From the NCBI GenBank assembly GCA_944389505.1, contig CALXMP010000012.1:1-57935 (forward strand): a stretch of DNA of 57,935 nucleotides, read 5' to 3'. Below the pieces are notes generated by a model. That model was not told where the DNA came from and searched no databases. It saw only the letters and a list, made by a program, of their open reading frames with translations. Made by a program: the position numbers and the translations under genes. Below are positions 103 through 54,568 of the stretch, piece by piece. How positions within the stretch are numbered: the first letter of the stretch is position 1; each line of letters starts with the position of its first letter. Source of the DNA: an uncultured Spirochaetaceae bacterium (GTDB taxonomy: Bacteria; Spirochaetota; Spirochaetia; Sphaerochaetales; Sphaerochaetaceae).

Positions 103-450
103 TCATGATAATTTGGGGATTTTCTCTTGATAAAACACAGCCATTCCGGTTATCGTTCTCAGATTGCTGCTGGAAAGAAGCCTGTCCCTTGCTGCTGTCA
201 TCGTCTTTTCCTGGAAATACAGCTTAACGGCATGCACTGCCAGCACTGAAAGGAGAGTATGTCCGGGACGCCCTGTACGGCTTCTTCCCTCATCGCACCT
301 CACTGAAGCAGGCATGACGGATACACGATTCTCCCACACCTCCATGAAACAAAGCTCATCATCTGTCGGCCGGAAGAAGAAACATGGCGAAAGGTCTTCA
401 GATGTGAAGAGAAGCGGTTGAATGGAAAGAGGATAAGCTGTAGACTGCAT
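103..450 (-). pseudogene. truncated IS transposase, N-terminal part (IS1182/IS5-like)
   Basis: The 115-residue frame begins with a good Shine-Dalgarno (AAGGAG, seven bases before the ATG). It carries an FFRPTDDELCFMEVWENR segment and an RTGRPGHTLLSVLAVHAVKL segment, which resemble the DUF772-type N-terminal domain of IS1182/IS5 transposases. That family is usually 400-550 residues. Here the frame stops just after a SNLRTITGM segment, and none of the other minus-strand frames continues the protein to the window edge, so the catalytic DDE domain is missing. I read it as a dead fragment. The family call is from memory of the motif and is moderately sure. Confidence 0.55.
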
Positions 451-1105
451 ATGAGGTCTCCTTATGTTGGTTTTGGTCGATTAACATTATAACAGGATTG
501 ACCTCATTTTTATATATAAAAAGGATTTGTTTGGATAAAAAGCTGAAAATGCCATGAAAGATCATGACTGATGGTCAATACTGAGACCTCAAAGCCACAC
601 ATTCTGCATATTCATGCAGCTTTTCATTGAAGACCTGAGTTTTGAAAAAAGCTCATTTATATTATTTTACTACGCGCGCGTGCATAATGCGCGAGGGAAA
701 ATTCCTCAAAAGGTACGCTGAAAACTCGGGTTTTCCACCGGCTGATTGTGGAATGTGCATTTGCTTGTGATCTTTCTTATTGATAATTTCGTCAATGCCT
801 TATCAATCTGATTCAAAGAGACTTGTGGCAGTGGTTTGCATCATCTTTTGCTGTATTCACCGCGTAACACATGCTTTTTCTTAAAAAGGGGGATTCTCTT
901 TTTACTCTGGAAAAATTAAAATATCAGAGAGCAAGAAGAGTAGCTCTAGTAGATTCTCTTAACCCCAAGGATTATTTCTGTGACGGCCTCCCTCATGGGA
1001 GGTTCTCGTCTTGTCGCAGAAAAGATAACAGACAGTTCTCATAGAAATTGCGTATTATCTTTATTCTTATCCCCCCTTTTCTGCTCATTCATCAAATAAA
1101 TTTCC
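451..1105. other. long intergenic stretch without a convincing gene
   Basis: About 650 bases with no supported gene. Visible structure: an alternating CG run near 673-682; a perfect 8-bp inverted repeat ATTGATAA (779-786) / TTATCAAT (800-807); a small hairpin CCTCCC-TCAT-GGGAGG near 987-1002; and a C6T4 tract (1071-1080) that is the inverse of the AAAAGGGGGG at 1121-1130 in the promoter downstream. None of these can be assigned a function from sequence alone. Confidence 0.4.
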
Positions 1106-1136
1106 TTGACAAGGGGGGTAAAAAGGGGGGTAAAAT
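1106..1136 (+). promoter_or_regulatory. promoter with two G6 tracts in the spacer
   Basis: TTGACA (1106-1111) and TAAAAT (1131-1136) are separated by 19 bases made of two GGGGGG blocks; the second block abuts the -10. The spacer is two bases longer than the 17-base optimum, so loss of two Gs would be expected to strengthen it. The same layout, TTGACA then a G-tract then the -10, recurs before the lipoprotein genes at 3482 and 53249. Length variation of such tracts by strand slippage is a known phase-variation mechanism in spirochaetes and other bacteria. Variation here is inferred, not seen. Confidence 0.6.
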
Positions 1137-1170: not shown

Positions 1171-3060
1171 ATGAATAGAAAGCCAATCTTCACTATTGTT
1201 CTGTCTGCTCTTCTTGTCCTCGCATTGTTTGCGGGATGTGAGCAGGCACAGCTTAATCTGCCTAAGAAGGTCGTCTCCGCTGAGATCATCCAGACCGGCG
1301 ACTTCCTTGCAGGGCAGGACTTCGATCCAACGAAGTTCGAGGTCAGGGTCATCTATGATGACAGCTCTGAGACAAGGCTCAATGGCGGAAACGTCGTTAC
1401 GCTTGACAGCGGCACAGAGGTTGTCCTTACATCAACTGTTTCTGCTACAGCAGGCATCGGTGTTGACGAGAAGCCTTTCACGATCGTTGGCGCTCCTGTA
1501 AGGATCACTCCTGTTGACAGCATTGCTGTTACGGTTCCTGCTGAAGCCGTAAAGACAAGCTCCACGTACAAGGGTGGCTCTGTCAATGCTGATGATGTAA
1601 AGGTCAGCGCTACATACACAAGCCTTTTCGGCGGCCAGTCCGTGACTGTTGATCTTCCTTATAAGGGTGTTGAGGCTACAGTTGAGGCCAAGCTTGATGC
1701 TGCTCTCGAGGCAAAGACCGGCGCTACAGGCACAGCTACAGTGACAGCAAGCCTTGGTGGAAAGACTGCTACAGAATCAATGGATGTTGTATATTCAGCG
1801 TCAACATCAGAGGATTACTCAGGTTATACATGGGCAATGGATGGAGATGGAAAGGGCATTGTGGCTTACAGGCTTGTTCCTGCGACAACATCCAACAGCG
1901 TAAGATACATCAATGGCGGCGCATTCGATGCAGCTTCCATGATTGAGCTTTACAAGGTCCTTACAACTGCTGATCAGTCCAAGTTCGCTTATGAGCTTAT
2001 CGACAATGCTGATGTCAAGTATACACTTGAGGATTACCTTGATGCTGATCATAAGAACAACTTCACAGCTTCTCAGAGCTTCGCTAGGGTTTCCTTCGTA
2101 TATGCTTATCAGACAGAGGCGGATGCTCCATACAACAAGGATACATTCGTTACAAAGGCAGCGTATGTCATCACATCCGATGTTGTTGAGTCAGATGCAG
2201 AGGGTATTTATCTTGCAGAAAATACCACGAATACTGAGACAAATGCGATGATCAAGATCGATCTCACGATGGATTATGTTACAGCACTGTCAGCTACCAC
2301 AAACAGGCTCTACATTGTCGGCGGAACTCCTGTTGCTTCTGATTTCACAGTCAAGGCTACATATAAGAGCGGAGTGACAGCAGAGCTTGAGCCTACTACA
2401 GATTACACAGTTGATAGCACTGCGCTTGTTGCAGGTACAACATCTGTAAAGGTAACTCTTGTAAATACAACTGATTATGACAAGTACAGCGATGCAGTCA
2501 CTGAGACAAATGCAGCTATCCGCATTGTCGATAATTACATCCAGTCTGTAACAGCTACATATGTCGGAAATGGCAACAGGACTCCGAAGCAGGCTATCGG
2601 TCAGGCATACAAGGAATCGGATTTCGAGTTTACCATCAACTGGGTCAAGAATGGCGATGATGATCCAAAGCCAGATGTAAGCTATACATTCAGTGCTGCT
2701 CCTACAAAGGTCGCAACGGATAATGAGGTGACAATCACATACTCAGTTCCATCAATCGGCCAGACAGGAACAACGAAGGTTTCGAATATCGAATCCATTG
2801 ATATCCCGTCGAGCATTTCCTTCGTTGGAGCAAGAGCAGGGGCTGTATTTACAGCCGGTGCACCTAACAAGGGCGACTTTGTATACAATGTCATCTGGGC
2901 CAGCGGTCTGAGGGAGTCGACGAACAATGGCCGCGGATTCAATGTCGTATTCAACCCGGCAGAACTCGTTGTTGGTGCGAATACCGTTACAGGAACCTGG
3001 GAGACATTTGGCTGGACAGGTACGATCGGAGGATCTGTACCTGTAACGGTCAATCAGTAA
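1171..3060 (+). CDS. surface lipoprotein with Ig-like (Big_3-type) repeats
   Basis: A 629-residue predicted lipoprotein. I chose the ATG at 1171 because GGAGAGG precedes it and a canonical lipoprotein signal follows (hydrophobic stretch, then LFAGC, lipidated Cys23); an upstream ATG at 1048 would start ahead of the promoter. The mature part has repeated Thr/Val/Ala-rich beta segments. The first, with a GQDFDPTKFEVRVIYDD stretch, looks like a bacterial Ig-like group 3 domain that often occurs in adhesins. The lipoprotein at 3482 is a paralog: both share SAEII, then L.G.DFDP, then a GG turn. Expression is probably set by the G-tract promoter. Binding partner unknown; adhesion or immune variation is inference. 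Confidence 0.8.
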   Translation: MNRKPIFTIVLSALLVLALFAGCEQAQLNLPKKVVSAEIIQTGDFLAGQDFDPTKFEVRVIYDDSSETRLNGGNVVTLDSGTEVVLTSTVSATAGIGVDEKPFTIVGAPVRITPVDSIAVTVPAEAVKTSSTYKGGSVNADDVKVSATYTSLFGGQSVTVDLPYKGVEATVEAKLDAALEAKTGATGTATVTASLGGKTATESMDVVYSASTSEDYSGYTWAMDGDGKGIVAYRLVPATTSNSVRYINGGAFDAASMIELYKVLTTADQSKFAYELIDNADVKYTLEDYLDADHKNNFTASQSFARVSFVYAYQTEADAPYNKDTFVTKAAYVITSDVVESDAEGIYLAENTTNTETNAMIKIDLTMDYVTALSATTNRLYIVGGTPVASDFTVKATYKSGVTAELEPTTDYTVDSTALVAGTTSVKVTLVNTTDYDKYSDAVTETNAAIRIVDNYIQSVTATYVGNGNRTPKQAIGQAYKESDFEFTINWVKNGDDDPKPDVSYTFSAAPTKVATDNEVTITYSVPSIGQTGTTKVSNIESIDIPSSISFVGARAGAVFTAGAPNKGDFVYNVIWASGLRESTNNGRGFNVVFNPAELVVGANTVTGTWETFGWTGTIGGSVPVTVNQ

Positions 3061-3074
3061 TTGAATTTTATTTT

Positions 3075-3095
3075 GCTGCCTGGCTTCCAGGCAGC
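3075..3095 (+). promoter_or_regulatory. 9-bp intergenic hairpin between lipoprotein and HTH gene
   Basis: GCTGCCTGG - CTT - CCAGGCAGC forms a perfect stem between the lipoprotein stop and the Shine-Dalgarno of the small HTH gene. It lacks a following T-run, so it looks more like an mRNA-stabilising or attenuating stem than a full terminator. An analogous stem sits at 4654-4683 in the second cassette. Confidence 0.55.
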
Positions 3096-3108
3096 TTACG
3101 GAGGGCTT

Positions 3109-3324
3109 ATGGAAGAGAAAGAGTCCCTCCCGAGAGAGCGTGCTTTTTTCATTCCGAATGAGAAGAGGCGCGAATGCCTCAGGCTTTTTTCGGAGGGTTA
3201 TGGCTATAAGAAGACTGCCCATGTGACTGGACTGAATGTGTATACGGTCCGTGATTATAAGAGGCGTTATGCACAGGGAGACTGCTCTTGGGCAGAACGG
3301 GGGCCGATTACCCCCCGTTTTTGA
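3109..3324 (+). CDS. small helix-turn-helix protein, cassette 1
   Basis: Seventy-one residues from the ATG at 3109, which has GGAGGG just upstream; an earlier ATG-like start at 3061 has none. Residues 14-61 form a homeodomain-like helix-turn-helix (NEKRRECLRLF, then GYKKTAHVTGLNVYTVRDYKRR), followed by a conserved SWAERG tail. The fold resembles the DNA-binding heads of IS3-type transposase OrfA proteins, but no transposase is present. It is nearly identical in its core to the protein at 4702 and sits in the same place, after an Ig-like lipoprotein. A regulator of the adjacent lipoprotein is plausible; a domesticated transposase head is the alternative. Its last codons form a terminator. Confidence 0.7.
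   Translation: MEEKESLPRERAFFIPNEKRRECLRLFSEGYGYKKTAHVTGLNVYTVRDYKRRYAQGDCSWAERGPITPRF
3296..3322 (+). terminator. terminator built into the 3' end of HTH gene 1
   Basis: AACGGGGG (3296-3303) pairs with CCCCCGTT (3312-3319) and runs into TTTTT. The stop codon TGA (3322-3324) lies inside the T-run, so the last codons of the gene double as a Rho-independent terminator. Confidence 0.6.
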
Positions 3325-3348
3325 TATTTTATTTTTGAAATTTGTTAA

Positions 3349-3380
3349 GATCCTGCAATAATGCTTTGCAGGGTCTTTTT
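3349..3380 (+). terminator. Rho-independent terminator after HTH gene 1
   Basis: GATCCTGCAA (3349-3358) pairs with TTGCAGGGTC (3366-3375), one G:U pair included, followed by five Ts. It separates the first lipoprotein cassette from the promoter of the second. Confidence 0.75.
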
Positions 3381-3418
3381 CATTTTTAAAATTACCCTCC
3401 TTTTTTGACTAAATTTCA

Positions 3419-3448
3419 TTGACAATGGAGAAGGAAGGGGGGTAATAT
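3419..3448 (+). promoter_or_regulatory. G6-tract promoter of the second Ig-like lipoprotein
   Basis: TTGACA (3419-3424), an 18-base spacer ending in GGGGGG, then TAATAT (3443-3448). Loss of one G would give the 17-base optimum. An inverted repeat ATTACCC (3391-3397) / GGGTAAT (3440-3446) brackets the promoter and could be an operator. Confidence 0.6.
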
Positions 3449-3481
3449 GCAGTCAGAATTAATCATTGGAGGAGAGTACTT

Positions 3482-4645
3482 ATGAAGAAAGTATTCATTG
3501 GAGTTCTTGCAGCTCTCATGCTCTTTGCTTTCACAGCATGCGATCAGAAGATTCCTGAGATTCCGAAGAAGGATGTACAGGTTCTTTCCGCAGAAATCAT
3601 CGAAGGCGATCTCGGATATCTTGTAGGTAGGGATTTCGATCCATCAAGATATACCGTTGAGATTACATTCAACGACCTTTCCACGACAACTGTCGGTGGT
3701 GCAAGCATCCTTACAGCTGATACTTCATTCGGAAAGAACGCTGGTGCACAGAAGATTACAGTCAATTATGGCAATACACAGTCAGTAAATCCTGTTTACG
3801 TCTATGCCTATGATGCTGCTTCTATCTCTGTTGACGCTTCTGCTGCAACAACAACATACGAGCAGGGAAAGTTCTATCCAGATGCAATCGATAAGGATGA
3901 CCTTGTTGTAACAGTAGTCCGCACAGATGGCGTTGAGGAGACTCTTGCTAATGATGAGTACGTAGTCGAGACTGCTCCTGGCACAACAGCAACATCTGGT
4001 GTTGTTACTGTAAAGTTCGGATCTGTTTCTGATACTTATGATGTAACAATCTCAGAGGCACCGCTTGATATTGATCCAGCAATGACATATGTCAATGGAA
4101 TCAAGTCCGCTGAGTATGTTGGTGATACACTTTACATCTCTGACAGCAACCGCACTACAGCTGCTACTACTGCTTCCAACTGGAAGATTGTTGCAACAAC
4201 GCCATATGGTGATTATGAGCTTCAGGCTGGTGATGCTTCCAACGTAAGCTTCGACAGCAGGACAACTCTTGCTTATGGTGAGAATGTCATCGCAATCACA
4301 GTTACAGTCGGTTCTAAGTCCTATACTGTATATGAGACTGTTACCGTCGAGAACGATCTCGCAGATCCTCGCCTCATCACTGGCTACACAGTTGTTATCA
4401 ACTCTGCAGTAGGTAAGGATGTTGTTCTTACAGAGGCTGACTATGCAAAGTTTGCTCCAGCTGTAATGGGCACAAATGCTGCAACAAACGCGGAAGTCAA
4501 GACTGGTTTCACAGTAGTTGATCTTTCCAAGCATTTCTTTACAGCGGATGAGACAACTGGTACTGTTAATGTCACATTCACTTGGGAAGGAAGTGGAGAT
4601 AAGGAATACACTGTAAACAATGTGCCTGTAAGCATTACAAGGTAA
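3482..4645 (+). CDS. surface lipoprotein with Ig-like domains, paralog of the 1171 gene
   Basis: A 387-residue lipoprotein with a typical signal (KK, hydrophobic stretch, AFTAC, lipidated Cys20) and a strong Shine-Dalgarno (GGAGGAG) before the ATG. Residues 35-90 match the first Ig-like unit of the 1171 protein: LSAEIIEGD, LVGRDFDPSRY, then a GGASIL turn. The rest is a series of beta-rich, Thr/Val-rich segments consistent with two or three more Ig-like folds. It is shorter than its paralog, so repeat number differs. Role inferred as a surface-exposed adhesin or antigen. Expression likely depends on the G-tract promoter at 3419-3448. Confidence 0.8.
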   Translation: MKKVFIGVLAALMLFAFTACDQKIPEIPKKDVQVLSAEIIEGDLGYLVGRDFDPSRYTVEITFNDLSTTTVGGASILTADTSFGKNAGAQKITVNYGNTQSVNPVYVYAYDAASISVDASAATTTYEQGKFYPDAIDKDDLVVTVVRTDGVEETLANDEYVVETAPGTTATSGVVTVKFGSVSDTYDVTISEAPLDIDPAMTYVNGIKSAEYVGDTLYISDSNRTTAATTASNWKIVATTPYGDYELQAGDASNVSFDSRTTLAYGENVIAITVTVGSKSYTVYETVTVENDLADPRLITGYTVVINSAVGKDVVLTEADYAKFAPAVMGTNAATNAEVKTGFTVVDLSKHFFTADETTGTVNVTFTWEGSGDKEYTVNNVPVSITR

Positions 4646-4653
4646 AATGTTTC

Positions 4654-4683
4654 TGGCCTGCTCCATGACTTCAGAGCAGGCCA
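4654..4683 (+). promoter_or_regulatory. 10-bp intergenic hairpin between lipoprotein 2 and HTH gene 2
   Basis: TGGCCTGCTC and GAGCAGGCCA form a perfect 10-bp stem around a ten-base loop, directly before the AGGAGG of the next gene. Its position matches the stem at 3075-3095 in cassette 1 although the sequences differ, suggesting a selected role such as partial termination. Confidence 0.6.
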
Positions 4684-4701
4684 ATACTAGAGGAGGACGC
4701 A

Positions 4702-4905
4702 ATGGAAGACAAGAAGCCGTCCCTCCGGTATCGTGTTCCTAACGAAAAACGCAGGGAATGCCTAAAACTCTTTGAAGAGGGAAATGGTTATAAGAAAACC
4801 GCGAGAATCACTGGGCTGAATCTATATTCCGTCCGGGATTATCGGCGGAGGTACGCGCAGGGCGATAGTTCCTGGGCAGAAAGAGGCGAGGTTTCCGCCA
4901 GATGA
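4702..4905 (+). CDS. small helix-turn-helix protein, cassette 2
   Basis: Sixty-seven residues with a GAGGAGG Shine-Dalgarno. The core (NEKRRECLKLFEEGNGYKKT, then ARITGLNLYSVRDYRRRYAQ, then SSWAERG) is almost the same as in the 3109 protein, so the two are recent paralogs. The helix-turn-helix resembles transposase/homeodomain-like DNA-binding heads. No enzymatic domain follows. It is probably cotranscribed with the lipoprotein at 3482 through the hairpin at 4654-4683, and a terminator follows at 4913. I infer a DNA-binding regulator tied to the lipoprotein; its target is unknown. Confidence 0.7.
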   Translation: MEDKKPSLRYRVPNEKRRECLKLFEEGNGYKKTARITGLNLYSVRDYRRRYAQGDSSWAERGEVSAR

Positions 4906-4912
4906 AACTGGA

Positions 4913-4940
4913 GGCCGTGGAATTACCGCGGTCTTTCTTT
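4913..4940 (+). terminator. terminator after HTH gene 2
   Basis: GGCCGTGG (4913-4920) pairs with CCGCGGTC (4926-4933), two G:U pairs included, followed by TTTCTTT. Confidence 0.65.
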
Positions 4941-4956
4941 GTCCTAGGAGGCTGCA

Positions 4957-5604
4957 ATGCTTATACGGTTCAGCAGGAAATTCCGTGATGATACCCAGAG
5001 AATTTACAGGATAGATTTTGAAAGATCTGAGAATAGCGATGGTTGCTTGTTTCAGCAGGGGTATGATATCGAAGATAATATAGACCCGAAAATACGGAAG
5101 TATAACTCTGTGAACCGGATAGAAGAGACTCTGCCAACCGTGGATAAGGCTTCTAGGAATTATATAAATGGATTTCCAGATAACAATTCGATGCGGATTC
5201 CTTTTGATTCAATGTTTAATACCAGTGATAGCAAATTCCTTGATCTGATTACTGTTGTAGGGATATCTTCTGCATTCAGCCATTGTTTTATCCCTTATTC
5301 TGGTGTCCCTTTTCGAGACAGTAAATTCATATCATCCAATATTGGTAGTAATCTCATTGGGAAGAATATTCCGGATTGGGCTATGACTGGACGGCATATC
5401 TATTTTCCATCGCAGGATTTCATTAATAAGTATATTTCGCCTTTAGAGGACCTTTTTGGATACGGTTTTATTGGGAAAATTGAATATGGACAGAATGAGT
5501 CCAGTCTGAGTACTGCTTTCTGGATAGATTCTGCCGATCTTGATCCGGTTCATGCATGCAGTGATCCCATCTATAAGAAACTATGCGATTGTCTAACAAA
5601 TTGA
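4957..5604 (+). CDS. hypothetical protein
   Basis: A 215-residue protein with a clear AGGAGG Shine-Dalgarno. It has no signal peptide or membrane segment; the N-terminus is charged. I recognise no domain. Residues 60-70 read TLPTVDKASRNY, close to SIPTVDKSSKNY in the lipoprotein at 54621-55529, and in both the motif follows a low-complexity or variable segment. This could be a shared domain boundary. It follows the second lipoprotein/HTH cassette behind a terminator and is probably transcribed on its own. It could also be a lipoprotein homolog that lost its signal sequence. Confidence 0.55.
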   Translation: MLIRFSRKFRDDTQRIYRIDFERSENSDGCLFQQGYDIEDNIDPKIRKYNSVNRIEETLPTVDKASRNYINGFPDNNSMRIPFDSMFNTSDSKFLDLITVVGISSAFSHCFIPYSGVPFRDSKFISSNIGSNLIGKNIPDWAMTGRHIYFPSQDFINKYISPLEDLFGYGFIGKIEYGQNESSLSTAFWIDSADLDPVHACSDPIYKKLCDCLTN

Positions 5605-5683
5605 TGATTAGAGTGCAGCGCTTAGGAAATACAGATTCTATGCCGGATTTCGATGGACAATATTTTATATAAAGCATATGCTG

Positions 5684-5719
5684 ATATTGGAAAGGAATTG
5701 CATTCCTTATTCCTAATAT
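5684..5719. repeat. long imperfect inverted repeat
   Basis: ATATT-GGA-AAGGAAT, a TGC loop, then ATTCCTT-TTCC-AATAT give a stem of about 15 bp with two single-base bulges. It lies between the hypothetical gene and the phase-variable lipoprotein. There is no T-run; the role is unknown. Confidence 0.45.
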
Positions 5720-5728
5720 TAATGATGA

Positions 5729-5765
5729 GGACCTTCTCTTAGCTTGTGCGGGGAGGGTCCATTTT
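5729..5765 (+). terminator. terminator-like hairpin
   Basis: GGACCTTCTC (5729-5738) pairs with GGGAGGGTCC (5751-5760) through ten pairs, two of them G:U, followed by ATTTTAT. Probably ends transcription of the 4957 gene. Confidence 0.6.
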
Positions 5766-5863
5766 ATACGATATCAGAGAAGTATTTCTATATATCCGGA
5801 AGCCTCATTTCCTTGTATAATTGCGCACTCACGAGTATTCTTCTGTACAGAAGGAAATTTTAT

Positions 5864-7409
5864 ATGAGAAATTTTACCCCCCCCCCGTAGGATTATATCC
5901 CGTGCTCTCGGGCTACTGATTTTTCTGGCTATAATCACATCGTGCAGACAGAATGTCATGATTCCAATCCAGATGCCGGAAAAATGGACTGTTACGTTCA
6001 TAAGTGATCCCGAAGAAGCTATGGCAACATATACTGATACGGCTATCGGAAACTCGTATAGGCTTGACGAACCATCTTCCGTCGATGGATATGAATTCAG
6101 TCATTTCCGGCTTTCGGATGGATCAATCCTCAATGCTGGGGAGACAATCAGCTATAGTGGCAAGAATGTTACCGTATATATTGTATGGATCCCAGTGATA
6201 ACGATAGATTCCAGTACTGGTTCAGCGAATCTTATCTCTGCTGCTTTACAGAACCTGTCTGCTGGCAATTATATCATTGACCTTTCCGCCGGTTCTTACT
6301 CTGAAGAGAATGATATAGAGATCAAGACTGGCCAGAATATCGCGATAAGGGCCACCTCTGCATCTGAAACGATCGTCAGCAGCGCTATAAAGCTTCAGGA
6401 AGGATCATCTGTTGCTCTTGAGAATATTACTCTCCAGAAAGCCGATGCTTCTTTGATTGAAGCAGAGACCGGCGGAGTTGCTATCAGTGTGGATTCCTCA
6501 ATTCTGAATGCCTCAGGGACTGGAAGAGGAATAGATGTAACTGTTCCAGTAGGTTCAACAGGAGATGAAGTCCATATTGCTGTAAGCAATTCCGTAATAA
6601 ATGTCGCAGCTGCAGCAACAGGTCCAGTTGGGACAGCTAGGGGTATTGATATAAACAACTACACATATGAGCTATCCTCTCCATTCGCCGGTCGTCTTGA
6701 GGCACTGATCCTTGACCTCGATAATGTCAGCATCAATGACACTACAGGAGGGTCAACGATTGGTGTTTGCATTGCAAATGTTGATTATATGGATGTCGAT
6801 ATGACTGGATGCACTATCGGTCTGCAGAATATCCATTATGCGACCTGCATCGATACATGCGGAACGTCTGATAGAAGAAGCTCCGTTGATATTGATGGTT
6901 GCACCATAAAGGGCTGGTATTGCGTATATCTCCGTGATGCATGCATAGGATTCGACGTCAATGTAAAGGATTCGGATCTTACAACCATCAATACACAGAA
7001 AGGTAACAATAACGGAATCGCGGTTATGCAGATGCATGATTCTCAGGATTGCATTATTACTGCCAATGACTCTCATATGTTATTTGGAAATATTGGAGAT
7101 GAATATAGTGAAGGACTTATATTTGGATTCCAGTATAATAATGATGTCTATACAAAGGGAGGCAATTGCCGGTTTGTAATCAACGGCTGTGATTTTACTC
7201 TTAATAGACCGATGACAGCCCGGATGAAGTTTGCAGCAATCGATAACTTTACATATACCGATAATTACGTACGTAACACATATGAGATGGATTCGTATTC
7301 TATAAACAGCTTATTGAACCTTATACCAGGTACCGAGGTTTTTCCGGTAACGCAACCTTTTACAGTCGATGGAGAGACAATAGACTTTACAGAGTACTTT
7401 CTTCAATAG
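5864..7409 (+). pseudogene. phase-variable beta-helix lipoprotein, OFF at C10
   Basis: AAGGA (5851-5855) and an ATG at 5864 open a frame that meets ten Cs at 5877-5886 and stops at TAG 5888-5890. With nine or twelve Cs the frame joins the long frame ending at 7409, giving a lipoprotein of about 514 residues. Its signal reads RRIISRALGLLIFLAIITSC, with Cys27 as the lipidated residue. Without the tract, the long frame has only an ATG at 5958, which would remove the signal. After the signal comes an InlB B-repeat-like unit (WTVTFISD to VTVYIVW), then a long Ala/Ser/Ile-rich parallel beta-helix with many short D/N-rich turns. This arrangement is a typical slipped-strand switch, here in the OFF state. 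A true dead gene or sequencing error is the alternative. Confidence 0.75.
5877..5886 (+). repeat. poly-C tract (10 Cs), candidate phase-variation switch
   Basis: Ten consecutive Cs start thirteen bases after the first base of the start codon. Frame arithmetic: the ATG is in frame 2 and the lipoprotein body in frame 0 (position modulo 3), so removing one C or adding two restores the reading frame. On the opposite strand the tract reads as a G-run followed by TAAAATT, the same string seen at the -10 of the 1171 promoter. Confidence 0.8.
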
Positions 7410-7670: not shown

Positions 7671-7823
7671 ATGGTTTTGGAAATAATCAAGGCGATACTG
7701 GATCTTGCCTCAAAGGCACTGGCCTTCATGGGTCTTTACAAAATAGTGTGGGATTTGTATCTGAAAGGGCCTCTGAAAGAAGCGAATATGATCTTGAGGA
7801 AGAAGTATTCGGTATCCCTGTAG
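7671..7823 (+). CDS. possible small hydrophobic peptide gene, 3' end fused to IS debris
   Basis: The 50-residue frame has a good Shine-Dalgarno (AAAGGAG) and starts with an amphipathic/hydrophobic stretch, MVLEIIKAILDLASKALAF, resembling small membrane peptides or type I toxins. The last 15-18 residues overlap the end of the ISL3 fragment on the other strand, so the natural C-terminus may have been replaced. A hairpin with GGCTTCCAGT / ACTGGAGCC arms lies about 50 bases upstream. It could also be chance; no homolog is recognised. Confidence 0.3.
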   Translation: MVLEIIKAILDLASKALAFMGLYKIVWDLYLKGPLKEANMILRKKYSVSL

Positions 7824-7915
7824 CCATAGGCTTTTCTTCTTATTGTCTTAATCATGTTGTTCACACCCTCAACTTTCCCGGAGGAGATGGGGAACTTGGC
7901 ATGGTATACGATTCC
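7736..7915 (-). pseudogene. ISL3-family transposase, C-terminal fragment
   Basis: About 60 residues on the minus strand match the C-terminal end of ISL3 transposases: HAKFPISSGKVEGVNNMIKT followed by KAYGYRDTEYFFLKI. The similarity starts abruptly near 7915, exactly where the IS1595-type similarity begins on the other strand, so the rest of the gene has been replaced. It is a dead fragment. Confidence 0.7.
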
Positions 7916-8395
7916 CATAAGAGGAGAAGCGATGGCAAGGAGTATAGGGGCATATCCAGAAACCAGATCTGCATAGGCATCGCATATGATGGATCCAATG
8001 TCTATTGCTGCCTTCTCGGGCATGGCAAGCCCTCGCAGAAATCTGTATACAATGGATTCAAGGCCCATGTAGTACCAGGCTCGACATTGATCCATGACAG
8101 GGAGAAAGCACATAAGAAGCTCATCCAGGAGCTGGGGCTGGAAAGCATTGAATACGATTCGAAGCAGCTGAAGGGTCTTCCGGATTCAGAGAATCCCCTT
8201 GAACCCATAAACAGGCGATGCTATGAGCTCCAACGTCTGATGCGCCGGCATCCGGGCTTCAGCCGTGATGATCTTCCTGGTTACCTTGACCTGTTTTCAT
8301 ACATACATAATCCTCCACAGGACAAGTATGAGAAGGTAGAAAACCTCATAAAACGGATTCTTGAAAATCCAAATTCTCTGAAATACAGGGACTAA
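7916..8395 (+). pseudogene. IS1595-family (ISXO2-like) transposase, C-terminal fragment
   Basis: About 160 residues resemble the second half of an IS1595/ISXO2-type DDE transposase: an EYRGISRNQICIGIAYDGSN segment, then STLIHDREKAHKKLIQELGL, where the IHD motif carries the second catalytic Asp. The zinc-ribbon head and first catalytic residue are missing. The frame appears open from 7748 only because it reads antisense through the ISL3 remnant. Non-functional on present evidence. Confidence 0.65.
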
Positions 8396-8819: not shown

Positions 8820-9710
8820 TCAGCCAATAAGCTTGATAGCCACAGGCACCAGATTTGTTATCGGTGTCTGTTCCGTATATCTCCACCCATCAGATATCTC
8901 TTTAAAGAGGCCATCGGCAGTCAGAGACCTGTTGAAGTATCCCGTTCTCCCATGTATTGTCTTCTCGCATCCCGAAATAGTTATCCCCCTTGAACTGAAT
9001 GATGTATGCTTCCAGTCAAGGATTCCTAGGATAGATGCAGTAAGCGCTCCATGGGATTCCTGTTCCCCGCTTTCCGCATAGACAGGTATCATATAAGACA
9101 GCTCATCAGATCCGGATGCGGCAATGACCTTCACCGACCGCAGGTCAAGCTTGCCGAACATGTCTGCAAAGGCATCCAATATTGATTGATCAGGACTGAT
9201 TGCCATTGCTCCGGAATAGCACGCGTCGATAATTGCAATAGCAGGAGCATCCTTCGCTTCCAGTACATCGAAAACCGAGTCCATTGCAAGCTTCTCATAA
9301 TCTGCTTCCGCTGATCCTACGGCAAGGAATGTATTCCCGTCGTCTTCCACGTCTCCGTGCCCAGAATAATAGAAGATTATCAGATCATCCTCTGTTGAAG
9401 GTATATCAGCGATAGCCTCGATTATCGCGTCAGCATCAGGGTAATCCGGGGCGTCCTTATCAGCTTCCGCACTGTACTGAACAAGATAAGACACATTGGT
9501 ATTGATTCCTCTCTGCCTATACATATCAGAAAGGCATGATCCGATTTCCAATGCATCATCCGGGCACCCTAGAAGATCCGGAGCACTGCTGTCCCGATAA
9601 TCCAGCCCCACCGATATGATATATACTGTGGCTTCCTTGGTATTCCCGTAAGGAGTACAGGCTGTGAGGGCAGTAGTAAGCATAATTAGTATTAGATTAA
9701 GATTACGCAT
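8820..9710 (-). CDS. caspase-like (peptidase C14) lipoprotein
   Basis: A 296-residue predicted lipoprotein: hydrophobic leader ending ALTAC, lipidated Cys18. The mature part has the caspase/metacaspase core, with the catalytic His in FYYSGHGD (His118) and the catalytic Cys in IIDACYSG (Cys164). The beta-strand before each fits the family (DDLIIFYY; PAIAIIDA). Most bacterial caspase homologs are cytoplasmic and cleave after Arg/Lys; lipid anchoring puts this one outside the cytoplasm, presumably in the periplasm or on the outer membrane. It overlaps the upstream barrel gene by 8 bases, so translation is coupled. It is the last gene of the operon. Substrate unknown. Confidence 0.85.
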   Translation of the reverse strand: MRNLNLILIMLTTALTACTPYGNTKEATVYIISVGLDYRDSSAPDLLGCPDDALEIGSCLSDMYRQRGINTNVSYLVQYSAEADKDAPDYPDADAIIEAIADIPSTEDDLIIFYYSGHGDVEDDGNTFLAVGSAEADYEKLAMDSVFDVLEAKDAPAIAIIDACYSGAMAISPDQSILDAFADMFGKLDLRSVKVIAASGSDELSYMIPVYAESGEQESHGALTASILGILDWKHTSFSSRGITISGCEKTIHGRTGYFNRSLTADGLFKEISDGWRYTEQTPITNLVPVAIKLIG

Positions 9711-53187: not shown

Positions 53188-53215
53188 TTGACAAATACCC
53201 GGGGGGGGGTATATT
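53188..53215 (+). promoter_or_regulatory. G9-tract promoter of a surface lipoprotein
   Basis: TTGACA (53188-53193), 16 bases ending in nine Gs (53201-53209), then TATATT (53210-53215). One more G gives the 17-base optimum, so tract length should tune or switch transcription. Confidence 0.65.
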
Positions 53216-53248
53216 CACAGGTGTATTGATATGCCACAGGAGGGATAA

Positions 53249-54568
53249 ATGAAGAGACAGATCAAGCTTTTTGCGGTATTGGCAATTGTTCTTGCTGCAG
53301 GAGCATCGTGCAATAATAATCCTTTGGGTGATCTTCCATTATGGGTTGTTCTTGGGCCATGCTATGCAGGTCATACATGGGAACTTGAATCCCATAAAGA
53401 ACCGACATGCATGGAAACGGGCGAAGATGTATATGTATGCTCTGTGTGCGGGAAAGAGAAGACGGATATTCTGGCAAAGATTCCGCATGCATTCGGAGAT
53501 TATCCAAATGAATGTATCTACTGTCATAATCTGTTCTATTCATCATTGGATGAATTCAATGAAAAAGTGACCCTTGAAAATGCCAAGGGCAAGATTGTCG
53601 AGGTAGCGCTGGGAAACCTGGATTATTCAGATATCGAATATGAAGAGCATAATTCAGGATATAAAGGGAATGGACTTCTTATCGGACGATTGCCAGGCGG
53701 TGATATAGAACCTCTTAACAGATATAACGCAGAACCAGCGGAGAAGGGTGAATATACATTTATTTTCAAGGACGGGACAATTAATTCAAGCTCGAACGGA
53801 TATTCTAGTATTGATAACATCAACGGCTCTGTTATCTATATGCTCATTCCTGGAAACAGCAGCGTGACTTTTGAGAATGTTGTATTCAATAATGTCGTAA
53901 GCTTTGGAATCCAGAACTATACATCCCCGTGGAGCTATCTTGATTCAATCAGATTCGAAAACTGTATCTTTAACGGACTTGTTGTAGGCTATTCACCGGC
54001 GGATAATCTTGTTTTCAATGGCTGCACGTTCAACGAATATCTCAATGGGTATCAAGATGTGGGAACATTCAACTCCTCCAATAATTCCAATCCTATATGG
54101 ATGAGGTCAGGGAAACCCAGTTATTCTGGTGAGCCTTTAGTAGTTTCGATGAAAACTGTGGTTTTCACAAATAATACAGTAACGAGTTCCCGTCCTGTCA
54201 AATTTGAACGTATCGGACAGCTTAGTGAGGCACTTGGGTATACAGCAACATTGACTATCCTTGATAATCAATTCGATATGTCTTGTTCGAATGATGCCGA
54301 TGTGTCAGAGGAAGAGAAGCATATGGCATTGTTCTTAGGGCAGCAAGATAATACCAGCAAATTCATACTTTATGACGATGGAAACAAAGTAAATGACGGG
54401 ATTCCTATGTATACTTCGATGCTTCCGGATTCTGATACAACATCAGGTGGAACATATTATTTCGAAGTTCTAGGAACAAGAATTCTCGACAGAAACGGGA
54501 ACCCGAAGGAGATTACTGCAAGGGTCTGGAAGTCACTGTCAGAAGAATTCGTGATGAGATCGCTATAA
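53249..54568 (+). CDS. beta-helix surface lipoprotein with a Cys-rich N-terminal motif
   Basis: A 439-residue lipoprotein: signal ending LAAGASC, lipidated Cys21; AGGAGGG Shine-Dalgarno. Residues 45-95 carry a Cys/His-rich segment (HTWELESHKEPTCMETGEDV, VCSVCGKEK, ECIYCH) that looks like a small zinc-binding module found in surface proteins of gut bacteria. The rest is a parallel beta-helix with Asn ladders (FENVVFNNVVSFG, FNGCTFNEY). Probably binds a host or dietary glycan or matrix; inferred. Transcription likely depends on the G9 tract. Confidence 0.75.
   Translation: MKRQIKLFAVLAIVLAAGASCNNNPLGDLPLWVVLGPCYAGHTWELESHKEPTCMETGEDVYVCSVCGKEKTDILAKIPHAFGDYPNECIYCHNLFYSSLDEFNEKVTLENAKGKIVEVALGNLDYSDIEYEEHNSGYKGNGLLIGRLPGGDIEPLNRYNAEPAEKGEYTFIFKDGTINSSSNGYSSIDNINGSVIYMLIPGNSSVTFENVVFNNVVSFGIQNYTSPWSYLDSIRFENCIFNGLVVGYSPADNLVFNGCTFNEYLNGYQDVGTFNSSNNSNPIWMRSGKPSYSGEPLVVSMKTVVFTNNTVTSSRPVKFERIGQLSEALGYTATLTILDNQFDMSCSNDADVSEEEKHMALFLGQQDNTSKFILYDDGNKVNDGIPMYTSMLPDSDTTSGGTYYFEVLGTRILDRNGNPKEITARVWKSLSEEFVMRSL

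Follow-up and report, generated by a model that had tools for sequence, protein, structure and literature searches.

The stretch of DNA analysed here (the window; 57,935 nucleotides) is contig 12 of a 2.12-Mb genome in 19 contigs, whose relatives are bins from gut metagenomes, belonging to Candidatus Ornithospirochaeta and Spirochaetaceae. It contains two tandem cassettes on the forward strand, each with a G-tract promoter, a lipoprotein gene, a hairpin, a small helix-turn-helix (HTH) gene and a terminator:

1071..1076 (+): C6 run 5' of promoter 1, inverted relative to the promoter's GGGGGGTA; weak candidate operator half
1106..1136 (+): promoter 1, with TTGACA, a 19-nt spacer containing two G6 tracts, and -10 box TAAAAT
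1171..3060 (+): lipoprotein 1, 629 aa; lipobox Cys codon at approximately 1237-1239, replaceable mature body 1237-3060
3075..3095 (+): hairpin 1, perfect 9-bp stem without U-run (z = -2.5)
3109..3324 (+): small HTH gene 1, 71 aa, HTH_23-type
3347..3377 (+): intrinsic terminator 1 (terminator-like structure) with T-rich tail
3393..3405 (+): TACCCTCCTTTTT, inverted relative to GGGGGGTA; one of only 3 genome matches to its pattern
3419..3448 (+): promoter 2, with TTGACA, an 18-nt spacer containing G6, and -10 box TAATAT
3482..4645 (+): lipoprotein 2, 387 aa, Ig-like beta-sandwich domains; lipobox Cys codon 3539-3541
4654..4683 (+): hairpin 2, perfect 10-bp stem without U-run (z = -2.8)
4702..4905 (+): small HTH gene 2, 67 aa, three-helix model
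4910..4936 (+): intrinsic terminator 2 (terminator-like structure)

The original prediction had described a duplicated cassette at this locus, and every part it named was found in its place, with both hairpins perfect to the exact coordinate. Its "Ig-like" assignment is borne out as well: the Big_3 profile matched 5 of 30 family members (with no match in the window protein 3482-4645 itself), and the Foldseek top hits of protein 3482-4645, the model of which is confident for approximately the first 190 residues only, include the Ig domains of Leptospira LigA. The 2 HTH cores had been called nearly identical; they are indeed similar, but this overstates an identity of approximately 82% over 49 residues and 70% over the whole protein. 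The pair is not a chance occurrence, because the genome has 11 copies of the cassette, the poly-G promoter pattern gives 14 matches in this genome versus 0 for the reversed control, and, though stem sequences differ, the best hairpin stem of 81 of the 95 gaps outperforms 59 or more of 60 simple mononucleotide shuffles of the same gap.

Each of the 11 HTH genes of the window genome is preceded by a lipoprotein gene and an intercistronic hairpin. The HTH gene is present in 30 of the 48 genomes of the genus, at 1 to 16 copies per genome; in a 198-genome sample of the class (92 genera) the 7 positive genomes were all of one genus, and the gene was not found outside the genus. Among the 82 loci with at least 1.45 kb of upstream DNA (three of them counted twice), a lipoprotein lies directly 5' of the HTH gene in about 80. 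An automatic test recovers an intact lipoprotein in 71 of these loci, another 7 follow a lipoprotein once longer or oddly started versions are read, and 2 follow a frameshifted one; the last 2 are a tandem second HTH gene and a remnant. The HTH family had been expected beside lipoproteins in related genomes, and this is where it lies, not mostly beside transposases. The proposal of a functional unit also stands, given an order kept in about 80 of the 82 loci, stems that diverge yet pair, and purifying selection on the HTH gene. What the original prediction missed is that the cassette is multicopy and genus-wide, and that the mature lipoprotein, usually together with the hairpin, is a replaceable module. 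HTH genes are often found at contig ends in relatives (e.g., G007:C103, C105 and C128, G019:C103, G065:C12 and C30), suggesting that near-identical repeats probably break assemblies and that copy numbers may be underestimated. At one locus of the window genome, L018 (G000:C5, approximately 5380-6557), the lipoprotein is frameshifted in the T6 tract of its signal peptide, representing either a pseudogene or a second slippage site; at another (L092, 5001-5500), a tandem HTH pair, the second member of which has diverged, follows a single lipoprotein.

The cassette is a fixed frame, consisting of promoter and signal peptide at one end and ribosome site and HTH gene at the other, around a replaceable mature lipoprotein, usually with its hairpin. 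For several pairs within the window genome, identities are 74-100% for the signal peptide and 79-95% for the HTH protein, and near 28% for the bodies, which is the level of a forced global alignment. Comparing all cassettes, 368 pairs (repeats of related loci included) are alike at the two ends and unlike in the body between them. On the 5' side, similarity mostly ceases at +62 to +72 of the lipoprotein gene, where the lipobox lies; on the 3' side, it most often resumes at -8 to -16 of the HTH gene, the position of its ribosome site. At three loci with synteny to related genomes, compared in four pairs, flanks of 90-99% identity enclose unrelated bodies. Bodies without DNA similarity are present in L019/L123 (3.7 kb of upstream DNA at 94%, the HTH block at 97%), L020/L128 (flanks of 93% and 90%, identical HTH proteins, unrelated hairpins), L016/L082 (2.4 kb of upstream DNA at 96%) and L016/L043 (downstream DNA at 97%), and none of these four comparisons gave significant body similarity at the protein level, except for 39% over 67 residues in L019/L123. 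The L123 body is closest to that of another locus, L020, and the L019 body resembles that of L102 from another species. In L075/L080, a syntenic pair of other species, the body has been retained. Finally, the L017 body is 68% identical to that of L078 in another genome; their HTH cores share 79%, versus 94% for L017 and its paralogue in its own genome. The replaced syntenic bodies and the L017/L078 match demonstrate that bodies and frames have separate histories. The diverged stems noticed originally, which do differ and still pair, are partly the product of module replacement rather than of drift of one stem. Recombination within the conserved ends would be the simplest cause of body exchange. 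Integron-like recombination at attC-type hairpins was rejected, as the 48 genomes gave no integron integrase match over the cut-off and general recombinase similarity only. In L013, L014 and L017, approximately 0.7 kb of DNA 5' of the lipoprotein is common to all three at approximately 92%, suggesting that some copies spread together with their upstream region.

In most cassettes, the promoter is of sigma70 type and holds a run of G5-G12 (usually G6-G12) between the -35 and -10 boxes, with spacers of 16-22 nt in the readable ones (mode 19, mostly 18 or 19). In the window genome, 10 of the 11 cassette promoters are on the assembly, all ten with TTGACA, a poly-G run and TA; the eleventh cassette starts at a contig end. 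Both window copies carry G6 tracts only, and 7 of the 8 other readable promoters of the genome have G9-G11, with G9, G10 and G11 occurring in otherwise near-identical promoters. No poly-G promoter was seen at several cassettes with enough upstream DNA (e.g., L094, L117 and L121). Loci with G6 only tend to a spacer of 18, several with better -10 boxes (TAATAT, TAAAAT, CATAAT), and at G8-G12 loci the -10 is mostly TAGNCT. From these features, the G6 loci, including both window copies, would be steadier promoters and the remaining loci switchable. With their G6 tracts and near-consensus -10 boxes, copies 1 and 2 are therefore probably less phase-variable than these eight other readable promoters of the genome, and are probably steadily expressed members of the family.

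Poly-G promoters are not confined to the cassettes. In three genomes with many such promoters and few HTH genes, each readable one among the loci covered drives a lipoprotein, and the three readable HTH-less poly-G promoters of the window genome likewise drive lipoproteins. One such promoter in the window (TTGACA-N7-G9-TATATT; 53188-54568, + strand) drives a 439-aa lipoprotein with no HTH gene recognised behind it. The numbers of HTH genes and poly-G promoters correlate over the 48 genomes (Spearman 0.84, with kinship ignored and cassettes entering both counts): the 18 genomes without HTH genes have 0-3 poly-G promoters, and those with HTH genes have 9 on average. The HTH gene is not required for this promoter type, since many such promoters occur without it, e.g., in G068, which has 11 poly-G lipoprotein promoters and a single orphan HTH gene with a TATAAT sequence upstream. 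A link between the HTH gene and one promoter variant (longer spacer, TAG-type -10) was rejected, as the HTH-less lipoproteins of G068 share the promoter build. In G020, a divergent HTH homologue faces a lipoprotein with AC-G9-TATTCT upstream.

By position and terminators, the HTH gene is the 3'-end DNA-binding gene of a surface-lipoprotein operon. The AlphaFold model is a three-helix domain (mean pLDDT 79), in which helices H14-26, H30-37 and H41-52 are confident. HTH_23 is matched by 47 of 50 members, with the similarity to HTH_23/28/29 being weak. Foldseek places the domain nearest to the DNA-binding domains of Pax and of transposases, with no E-value reaching significance; searching the HTH profile against sequences of solved structures gave nothing significant, and a PHROGs search returned weak, generic matches only. 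A dN/dS of about 0.11, both within and between genomes, demonstrates purifying selection, and passenger DNA was rejected on this ground. In the recognition region, N40, Y42 and R45 are invariant or nearly so across the genus, so that the paralogues would be expected to recognise one and the same DNA.

A candidate operator is TACCCTCC plus a T-run, inverted relative to GGGGGGTA. The genome contains the TACCCTCCNTTTT pattern at three places, all immediately 5' of a cassette promoter, and the flanking bases match as well (ATTACCC/GGGTAAT in window copy 2, ACTACCC/GGGTAGT in L019 and L020). Since only some of the cassettes have this candidate, we regard it as a lead only.

We propose, with a probability of roughly 50%, that the cassettes are slippage-controlled, recombining lipoprotein operons, the HTH proteins of which regulate poly-G lipoprotein promoters in trans. 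The observed basis is the architecture, its multiplicity, the replacement of bodies and the selection on the HTH gene; slippage, the DNA target and the sign of regulation are inferences. Slippage of the G-run (mostly G8-G12, spacer 18-22) would turn a cassette up or down, and homologous recombination at the conserved promoter/signal and HTH ends would install new bodies. The hairpin may insulate or stabilise the lipoprotein message 5' of the HTH ribosome site rather than terminate it. The HTH protein, as a product of the lipoprotein message, would then be a trans-acting regulator of the cell's own poly-G lipoprotein promoters, leading to auto- and cross-regulation, most likely a repression that limits co-expression; for the sign, repression is our guess. 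The window pair belongs to a genus-wide family of recombining surface-lipoprotein operons, most members of which are probably phase-variable. More tentatively, the loci might form a mutual-control network, in which approximately ten phase-variable loci each make the same DNA-binding protein acting on the poly-G promoters of the other loci, so that slippage results in a near-exclusive choice of antigen and the shared frame takes up new bodies by recombination without rewiring.

Several other readings of the parts have to be weighed against this proposal. The original prediction took the hairpin as a partial terminator that keeps HTH levels low from each lipoprotein message. Conservation of the hairpin in 81 of 95 gaps and T-runs behind it in a few other species (e.g., L040 and L150) would fit, but both window hairpins lack a U-run, and a T4 run follows the hairpin in only 4 of 75 loci, versus 42 of 84 terminator-like structures 3' of the HTH gene (lenient test). 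Moreover, a strong ribosome site of the AGGAGG type usually precedes the HTH gene, and the stem usually ends approximately 18 nt 5' of the HTH start, adjoining this site. Hence, the claim that the HTH protein is made at a reduced level is not upheld, the hairpin is unlikely to be a standard terminator because it usually lacks a U-run (an ordinary terminator was rejected for the window genome on the same T4 count), and a partial one seems rather improbable to us. We give still less weight to the idea that the HTH protein derives from a transposase, binds at the ends of the cassette and promotes the exchange of bodies. The HTH_23/28/29 similarity, the weak structural matches to transposase DNA-binding domains and the fact that the replaced segment ends next to the HTH gene speak for it; against it, the HTH ORFs are mostly 59-81 aa and have no catalytic domain in the same or an adjacent ORF, no integron integrase exceeds the cut-off, and homologous recombination in the conserved ends explains the exchange. 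That the gene is part of an insertion sequence was likewise rejected: it weakly matches transposase-type HTH domains, but no catalytic ORF accompanies it and it follows lipoproteins. The HTH gene does mark the 3' edge of the replaced segment, as would be expected if it were a mere conserved homology arm or a passenger, with gene conversion keeping the copies alike; its near-invariant residues over the genus and its own ribosome site speak against this explanation, which its dN/dS largely refutes and which we consider very improbable.

A different type of alternative accepts the HTH protein as a regulator and assigns it unrelated genes as targets, i.e., a lifestyle switch tied to adhesin expression rather than control of lipoprotein promoters. 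Such a role is played by PapX/FocX of uropathogenic E. coli, DNA-binding regulators whose genes stand last in adhesin operons, as the HTH gene does in the cassette, and which have paralogues in sibling operons (PMC6246914), and the existence of poly-G promoters without an HTH gene would agree with it. The likeness has limits: PapX/FocX are MarR-like winged HTH proteins with about 2 copies that target flhDC, whereas the cassettes encode a homeodomain-like three-helix HTH in up to 16 copies. In addition, none of the 48 genomes of the genus has FliM (flagellated control genomes were positive), so that the classical flagellar target is lacking, PapX-like flagellar repression is unlikely, and flagellar genes were rejected as HTH targets. 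The tracking of poly-G promoter number by HTH number and the divergent HTH-lipoprotein arrangement in G020 also argue against unrelated targets, which we therefore think unlikely, and favour regulation of the poly-G lipoprotein promoters themselves. As a side observation, the absence of FliM suggests that the genus is probably without flagella.

In the open-access literature, we found no description of a spirochete system with lipoprotein, HTH gene and poly-G promoter. Individual elements do have counterparts, those nearest in concept being PapX/FocX, FljA and UpxZ. In the fljBA operon of Salmonella, the regulator FljA lies behind a phase-variable antigen gene, like the cassette HTH gene, and shuts off the alternative antigen; that system differs in using DNA inversion and in having two antigens only. 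FljA is not known to be related in sequence to the cassette HTH protein. In vlsE and tprK antigenic variation, part of an antigen is replaced between conserved flanks; there, segments come from silent donors, whereas here whole mature bodies are exchanged between complete, promoter-bearing loci. Closest to the cassette promoters are those of the T. pallidum surface-protein genes tprE/G/J/L and tp0126, which carry a run of 7-11 G, mostly 9, in or between the promoter boxes; in vivo, the length of this run fluctuates about 9 G, with an effect on promoter activity (PMC7864442). Those genes, however, encode outer membrane proteins, have no known HTH gene or hairpin behind them, and are not known to undergo such body replacement. 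The variable capsule loci of Bacteroides resemble the cassettes in that sibling surface loci encode regulators, UpxY and UpxZ, that act on other loci (PMC7315117), but these work by antitermination and anti-antitermination, are encoded at the operon start, and control polysaccharides. An adhesin role for the cassette lipoproteins is inferred from their Ig-like folds. Taken together, the parts would seem to form a hitherto undescribed antigen-switching system that includes its own regulator. If this is right, an uncultured gut genus possesses a large antigenic-variation system that unites three strategies usually seen apart, i.e., promoter slippage, whole-body replacement and an operon-linked regulator. 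It would then be a natural setting, with many loci, in which to study the coordination of stochastic antigen switches by bacteria, the HTH gene together with a poly-G promoter would be a marker for hypervariable surface proteins in gut spirochete metagenomes, and the HTH proteins would constitute a genus-restricted regulator family with a clear target prediction.

Several other ORFs of the window deserve mention. Adjoining the cassettes (5864-7409, + strand), a C10 run (5877-5886) in the first codons puts a lipoprotein gene out of frame, and a C9 tract would give a read-through lipoprotein of 514 aa, making this gene a candidate for phase variation in the coding sequence. ORFs at 103-450 (- strand) and 7736-8395 (both strands) look by eye like transposase remnants, and one at 8820-9710 (- strand) looks by eye like a lipoprotein with a caspase-like domain.
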